Source: Opitutia bacterium (lineage in GTDB: Bacteria; Verrucomicrobiota; Verrucomicrobiia; Opitutales; UBA953). From it: a DNA stretch of 34,823 nt. This document shows, piece by piece, positions 8,944-9,951 of the stretch. Below the pieces are notes generated by a model, which did no database searches, was not told where the DNA came from, and saw only the letters and a list, made by a program, of their open reading frames with translations. Position numbers and translations under genes: made by a program. The stretch lies in contig CANGNX010000005.1 of the NCBI GenBank assembly GCA_947455415.1, positions 1-34,823 on the forward strand. The letters run 5' to 3'. Within the stretch, counting starts at the first letter, position 1, and every line of letters begins with the position of its first letter.

Positions 8944-9435
8944 ATGTTGCCTCCGCCCCCGTTTCGTATTGGTCAAGGGTACGATATCCATCCCTTGGTG
9001 GCGGGGCGTGCGTGTATCTTGGGCGGTGTGAAAATTCCGTCCGACGTGGGTCCCGAGGGTCACTCGGATGCGGATGTATTATTGCACGCGATAGCGGATG
9101 CAATTTTAGGTGCCGCAGGGCTGCGTGATATTGGACATTATTTTCCTAATACCGACCTCACTTTGCAGGGCATGAATTCGGGTGTGATTGTCAAAAAAGC
9201 GGTGAGTGAAGTCACGGCCCTGGGTTGGAGAATCGGGAATGTCGATCTCGTGGTGTTAGCCGAGCGACCCAAGATCAGTCCGCATATTTCTGAGATGAAA
9301 AAAAGTGTGGCCCAGCTCTTGGGTGTCGAGGTGGGACAAGTCGGAATTAAAGCGACGACTAATGAGGGAATGGACGCGATTGGGCAGGGTAAGGCTTTGG
9401 CCGTGCAGGCAGTTTGCCTCATTTATCGGGGTTAA
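8944..9435 (+). CDS. ispF: 2-C-methyl-D-erythritol 2,4-cyclodiphosphate synthase
   Basis: RIGQGYDIHPLV, GHSDADVLLHAIADAILGAAGLRDIGHYFP, KATTNEGMDAIGQGKA. Confidence 0.96.
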   Translation: MLPPPPFRIGQGYDIHPLVAGRACILGGVKIPSDVGPEGHSDADVLLHAIADAILGAAGLRDIGHYFPNTDLTLQGMNSGVIVKKAVSEVTALGWRIGNVDLVVLAERPKISPHISEMKKSVAQLLGVEVGQVGIKATTNEGMDAIGQGKALAVQAVCLIYRG

Positions 9436-9454
9436 GGTGCCTTTTTTGCCATTG

Positions 9455-9516
9455 AGGCTTGTCAAAAGCCTATAAAAAGCCCATTTTAATGGGCTACTCT
9501 CTTTAGAGGTAGCCCT
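9455..9516 (+). promoter_or_regulatory. Candidate structured leader RNA with alternative pairings upstream of ndk
   Basis: AGGCTT(9455-9460)/AAGCCT(9466-9471); AGCCCATT(9478-9485)/AATGGGCT(9488-9495); GGGCTACTCT(9491-9500)/AGAGGTAGCCC(9505-9515). The last two share GGGCT and are mutually exclusive; the third contains the SD AGAGG. Confidence 0.5.
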
Positions 9517-9951
9517 ATGGAACAGACCCTCATCATTCTCAAGCCCGACTGCATGGAGCGCCGTCTCTACGGCACCGTTTTGGCCCGCTTTGAGGCGGAA
9601 GGTTTTGATATCCAGGCCTGCAAATTGACGGTGCTGACCAAGGCCCAATTGCGCGAGCACTACGCCCACGTGGCCGATAAGCCTTTTTACCCAGACATCG
9701 AAGCCTTCATGTCTTCCCGTCCGGTCATCATTGCCGTGCTCTCGGGGGACAAGGTGATTTCTCGCGTGCGCGATTTATTGGGCCCTACCAATTCTAAGGT
9801 GGCCCCGAAAGGAACCATTCGTGGCGATTTTGGCACCGAGATGATGCGCAATGTTTGTCACGCTTCGGACAGTCCAGAAGCTGCGTCGGCCGAGATTCGT
9901 CGTTTCTTTAAGGCCGACGAAGTTTTTCAGCCTGCAGTGGCTCGCGGATAA
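9517..9951 (+). CDS. ndk: Nucleoside diphosphate kinase
   Basis: EQTLIILKPDCMERRLYGTVLARFE; GPTNSKVAPKGTIRGDFG; NVCHASDSPEAASAEI active-site His motif. Confidence 0.96.
   Translation: MEQTLIILKPDCMERRLYGTVLARFEAEGFDIQACKLTVLTKAQLREHYAHVADKPFYPDIEAFMSSRPVIIAVLSGDKVISRVRDLLGPTNSKVAPKGTIRGDFGTEMMRNVCHASDSPEAASAEIRRFFKADEVFQPAVARG

Follow-up and report, generated by a model that had tools for sequence, protein, structure and literature searches.

The region considered here lies between two forward-strand genes of the window, by which we mean the whole 34,823-nt stretch of DNA that was analysed. The window belongs to a MAG of freshwater Opitutae (Verrucomicrobiota), and its nearest named records are Opitutae MAGs; in two such MAGs (L032 and L033) NDK is 99% and 95% identical, respectively, to that of the window. 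The start codon of ndk, an ATG at 9517, is separated from the upstream gene by a gap of 81 nt (9436-9516), within which the initial annotation had reported a chain of complementary blocks, all of which are present where it had placed them. The features are listed below, with gene names as given by the initial annotation from sequence alone and with the energy of each hairpin folded alone.

8944-9435, forward strand: ispF, the upstream gene (163 amino acids), an open reading frame with a homolog just 5' of ndk in relatives from the genus
9455-9460 with 9466-9471: hairpin 0 (AGGCTT and AAGCCT), -7.1 kcal/mol
9459-9464, forward strand: predicted -35 element TTGTCA of an ndk promoter, overlapping hairpin 0 (9455-9471)
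9478-9485 with 9488-9495: hairpin A (AGCCCATT and AATGGGCT), -9.4 kcal/mol
9482-9487, forward strand: CATTTT, the predicted -10 element, which lies inside hairpin A (9478-9495) at a spacing of exactly 17 nt from the -35
9491-9500 with 9505-9515, forward strand: hairpin B (GGGCTACTCT and AGAGGTAGCCC), a predicted 5'-terminal stem-loop adjoining the ndk start codon, -15.0 kcal/mol
9493-9495, forward strand: predicted region of the transcription start (positions 6-8 after the -10, position 7 being C9494)
9505-9509, forward strand: AGAGG, a Shine-Dalgarno (SD)-like tract in the 3' arm of hairpin B
9517-9951, forward strand: ndk, nucleoside diphosphate kinase (144 amino acids), an open reading frame with homologs in 48 of 57 related genomes

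A limited literature search found no described cis-regulation of ndk. Our comparison set comprised 36 same-genus genomes, and 51 ispF-ndk leaders were oriented.

A predicted promoter of ndk

In 49 of the 51 leaders the motif CTTGT occurs 45-75 nt before the ATG; in the other two (L049 and L054) it lies closer, in a shortened leader that lacks the hairpin. Because CTTGT served as our search anchor, it does not constitute independent evidence for the -35. Exactly 17 nt after TTGNNN, all 49 leaders carry a hexamer with A at its second position and T at its sixth while the neighbouring columns vary, as is characteristic of a sigma70 -10 element. This promoter-like block is therefore conserved in 49 of the 51 leaders, as a -35 TTG and a -10 NANNNT whose spacing, for which a sigma70-type promoter allows 16-18 nt, is always 17 nt. 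We predict from this comparison that the upstream half of the ispF-ndk leader is a sigma70-type promoter of ndk. The -10 of the window is weak, and it is because CATTTT matches three of the six consensus bases that the promoter was missed by a consensus scan. CTTGTC also precedes ndk in three distant Cerasicoccus genomes (L091, L093 and L102), the first of which has TTGTCA-17-TATGTT. Upstream of genes in approximately 820 kb of genus contigs, NANNNT follows CTTG at a spacing of 17 nt in 27 cases, versus 7-15 at other spacings.

In the spacer of the ndk promoter, some 4-7 bp before the -10, a run of A is nearly invariant, with A in 48 of 49 leaders at one column, though spacers usually vary; in the window it lies at about 9474-9478.

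Position 7 after the -10 is C in all 49 leaders. In E. coli, transcription starts at position 7 in 55% of cases, and at positions 6, 8 and 9 in 8%, 29% and 7%, respectively (PMC5730371). From the -10 and this preference for position 7 we infer a start at approximately 9493-9495. The initial annotation had proposed that hairpins A and B form a translational on/off switch, with A open and B closed, and had named a start downstream of 9491 as telling against it; the comparison predicts just such a start. A message from the ndk promoter would begin within the 5' arm of hairpin B, and hairpin A would then fall outside it. Longer transcripts could arise in addition by read-through from ispF. Hairpins 0 and A, put forward earlier as elements of the leader, coincide with the -35, spacer and -10 of the conserved promoter, and neither is itself conserved: hairpin 0 is already broken in L033, and no leader compared, other than those of the window and its two closest relatives, has a counterpart of hairpin A.

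We also considered hairpin A as a minus-strand terminator (AGCCCATTAAAATGGGCTTTTTAT) and rejected it, since no convincing minus-strand gene in the ORF list ends there and the hairpin is not conserved.

Conservation of hairpin B

In 47 of 49 leaders a hairpin orthologous to B begins at the predicted transcription start or no more than 2-3 nt from it. Folding the 41 distinct leaders, each taken from position 6 after the -10 up to the last base ahead of the ATG, yielded a mean minimum free energy of -8.22 kcal/mol versus -4.30 kcal/mol (sd 0.29) for dinucleotide shuffles (z -13.7). Among the 39 distinct leaders that fold, the stem starts at position 6 after the -10 in 11, at position 7 in 17, at position 8 in 10 and at position 9 in one; the remaining two (L035 and L039) do not fold into the hairpin. 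Because it is absent in L035 and L039, and in the shortened leaders of L049 and L054, hairpin B is not essential. Taken alone, the leader of the window (9493-9516) is modestly unusual, with 42 of 1000 shuffles as stable. The hairpin ends 1 nt from the AUG in the window and about 5-8 nt from it in most relatives.

Because loop and tail lengths vary, a MAFFT alignment of the leaders misplaces the 3' arms, and the RNAalifold consensus contains no pairs; for this reason, the test of covariation used arm-swap energies. When 3' arms were exchanged between species, the native energy was -8.64 versus -6.29 (sd 0.28) for the permuted arms, and none of 2000 permutations was as good, although such permutations, like the shuffles, leave some phylogenetic relatedness in place. 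As related sequences can mimic the co-adaptation of arms, we made 23 disjoint nearest-relative contrasts, which reduce this relatedness, and found the native combination better in 16, the chimera better in one and a tie in six (p=1.4e-4). A fixed-split version of the contrast gave 14:1 in favour of the native arms of hairpin B, versus 5:8 for the region of hairpin 0, 12:8 for the spacer and 9:14 for DNA upstream of the -35; the region of hairpin A gave 6:1 with 16 ties (p=0.06). At p<0.05 there was no co-adaptation signal in the hairpin 0, hairpin A or upstream-DNA controls. Pair types at position 9 differ by species (for example C-G, U-A, A-U and G-C), and G-U accounts for 21 of the 295 stem pairs, which argues for an RNA structure rather than a DNA palindrome. 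Compensatory change across relatives, by which a conserved RNA stem is recognised, had been proposed as a check on the leaders of this gap and was found for hairpin B only. On this comparative evidence, compensatory changes have preserved hairpin B within a genus of freshwater Verrucomicrobia.

Over positions -27 to -1, ndk leaders average -9.04 kcal/mol, versus -3.43 kcal/mol (sd 3.06) for 323 ATG-start ORFs, a background in which starts were called by simple rules and some are wrong. A search of the genus contigs for a promoter plus hairpin returned ndk as the clear case, and a leader model, which is sequence-only, matched ndk leaders alone with confidence across 41 genomes.

Conserved elements were also observed before other genes. 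The pyrG (CTP synthase) leaders of the genus (L156, from the window's own genome, G000:C4, and L152-L181) have a conserved terminator-like hairpin, GAAAGTCCAGACCGGC...GCCGGTCTTATCTTTTTT, approximately 30-80 nt before the ATG, with GTCC 5' of the stem and GGAC in the loop; it has no Rfam match and looks like a transcription attenuator. A pyrimidine-rich block, CTTCTCCGCTTTCCTTCCGCC, is conserved among the pyrD leaders (L202-L221), where it lies about 25-45 nt ahead of the start. Three genomes (contigs G015C65, G034C3 and G004C86; L132-L147) share a small conserved hairpin, CGGGC-loop-GCCCG, located approximately 5 nt ahead of a start codon; the gene behind it, whose protein starts MTEA/MSDA...KKGHRIALDCMGGDMGPSEAV, looks like plsX.

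Possible effects on ndk expression

Hairpin B had been described as burying an SD next to the ndk start. A conserved hairpin does cover AGAGG, but the premise that this tract acts as an SD is weak in an SD-poor genus. SD-like matches of at least 4 nt occur in 44 of 49 ndk orthologs, versus 75 of 323 background genes, and the 3' arm is purine-rich (264 of 295 paired bases). Before well-supported starts (L112-L151 and the window) no enrichment of an SD motif was found, and G is low there. The genus looks SD-poor, in line with a report that a few Verrucomicrobia, including isolate IMCC26134, are SD-scarce and keep CCUCC (PMC10783764). For the 16S 3' end, canonical patterns gave no usable match, and an SSU search returned one fragment in 57 genomes. 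Because the genus looks SD-poor, masking an SD may matter little. Hairpin B likely occludes the initiation region, and it may obstruct initiation directly rather than through SD masking; in SD-poor bacteria, stable structure adjoining the AUG is expected to cost translation (PMC5397173).

The same set of starts (L112-L151 and the window) strongly favours C at positions -1 and -2.

The reading that we prefer, and to which we give about an even chance, is that the 5'-terminal hairpin of a short leader made from ndk's own promoter throttles ndk translation, with a strength that depends on the choice of start site. The promoter (TTGTCA at 9459-9464, 17 nt, CATTTT at 9482-9487) would make a leader of about 22-24 nt, which would immediately form a hairpin whose first base lies at the 5' end or a few nt from it. 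This hairpin would keep the initiation region and the SD-like purine tract of its 3' arm double-stranded, and in this way ndk translation is probably kept low. Since the stem rests on the bases that are transcribed first, a start shifted by one or two bases would loosen it, such that the strength of the hairpin may be set by start-site choice. In the window, pairing of the B stem is predicted at 0.99 from G9493, 0.85-0.89 from C9494 and approximately 0.2 from U9495, and in the orthologs the mean leader energy for starts at positions 6, 7, 8 and 9 is -8.4, -7.7, -5.9 and -4.0 kcal/mol, respectively. In most orthologs the hairpin stays whole when transcription begins at the likely purine starts (positions 5-6), so start-site switching may rarely open it. 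That a leader hairpin is conserved despite a non-enriched SD and the expected cost of structure points to genuine control over the expression of ndk, and the hairpin is a small, readily testable element.

The main rival to translational throttling is protection of the mRNA at its 5' end. A stem at the first or second nucleotide would block 5'-end-dependent decay of the RNase E/G type and so stabilise ndk mRNA, and its overlap with the initiation region would be a side effect of the short leader. The stem does begin at the predicted 5' end, or no more than about 2-3 nt from it, in most orthologs, and a protein of the RNase E/G family scored above the cut-off in 15 of 16 genus genomes, with no RNase J-type match above the cut-off. 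However, the polarity of the hairpin, with its purine-rich and SD-like 3' arm, would be needless for stability alone, and the cost to translation expected of structure beside the AUG also speaks against this explanation, which we judge unlikely on the whole while giving it serious weight.

A nucleotide-sensing switch of the pyrC kind, in which NTP levels would decide whether transcription begins where the hairpin closes or a few bases further downstream, where it opens, appears doubtful. The short leader, the stem anchored at positions 6-8 after the -10 and the SD-like 3' arm are all consistent with such a switch, as are the steep fall of predicted stability with start position, in the orthologs as in the window, and the action of NDK on NTP pools. 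At pyrC the alternative start is a purine at position 9 after the -10, whereas among the 49 ndk orthologs position 9 is a pyrimidine in 43 (C in 36, T in 7) and a purine in the other six (A in three, G in three), the clade of the window having A9. An alternative purine start 2-3 bases downstream was thus not found as a general feature, and because position 9 is a non-purine in 43 of 49 we have not filed the ndk leader as a pyrC-type switch. Nor was the same hairpin seen before pyrC, pyrD or pyrG in the genus (pyrD leaders were judged by eye), where pyrC lies directly behind another ORF. The nucleotide-sensing step is a conjecture, and the full proposition, that ndk in this genus is controlled by an NTP-dependent choice between adjacent starts that open or close a 5' hairpin in bacteria making little use of SD sequences, is a shade more doubtful; if true, it would place a pyrC-like sensor on the enzyme that keeps all NTP pools in equilibrium.

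It is improbable that the leader hairpin is a binding site for a trans-acting repressor or sRNA. The motif R-A-C-C at the predicted 5' end is conserved in most of the genus, as a binding site might be, but the clade of the window has GCT in place of ACC, the stem and loop sequences vary widely with only their pairing kept, and the sequence-only model found no confident second copy of the leader in the 41 genomes.

As for the A/B switch, hairpin B has the 10 bp first ascribed to it, with ViennaRNA placing a bulged U9498 and a UUUA loop in lieu of a bulged G and a CTTT loop, and the two hairpins do exclude each other, both containing 9491-9495. With every upstream sequence tried, the predictions are 93-99% for the main B stem and 1-2% for hairpin A, which makes the pair unbalanced as a switch; for the ispF read-through RNA the values are 1-2% for A and approximately 97% for B. 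The full 125-nt leader (9436-9560), whose folding had been suggested earlier, shows no unusual stability (z -0.89, with 37 of 200 shuffles equally stable). A riboswitch would have two mutually exclusive conserved structures in its transcript, and here only B is conserved; the leader had not been recognised as any known riboswitch class, and in agreement with this an Rfam search returned nothing at the gathering threshold, with chance-level matches only at E<=10. Even in ispF-ndk read-through RNA, for which no forward-strand U-tract terminator was seen between the two genes in the window, the A/B switch is highly improbable, and we rejected it on fold probabilities, lack of conservation and overlap with the promoter.

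Comparison with known leader elements

Like translational riboswitches and RNA thermometers, the ndk leader has an SD-like tract in its 3' arm; unlike them, it is approximately 25 nt long and has no ligand domain, conserved alternative hairpin or Rfam match. E. coli ompA carries a stabilising stem-loop at the 5' terminus of its mRNA, which hairpin B resembles in lying at or near the 5' end, but hairpin B belongs to a leader of approximately 25 nt and extends into the initiation region. In E. coli pyrC, the first transcribed bases form a hairpin with the SD region, and the strength of this hairpin is set by the starting nucleotide. Start-site switching at the pyrC (and pyrD) leaders of E. coli and Salmonella is cited in PMC5730371. 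The ndk leader differs from pyrC in the gene that it precedes, in lacking a position-9 purine in 43 of 49 orthologs, in its SD-poor host and in that a role for start switching is here conjecture. It shares with pyrC a short leader and, given the predicted start, a hairpin between the first transcribed bases and the SD or initiation region; the base of the stem lies at positions 7-8 after the -10 in pyrC and at positions 6-9 in the 39 distinct ndk leaders, and in both systems start shifts of one or two bases change the stability of the hairpin.
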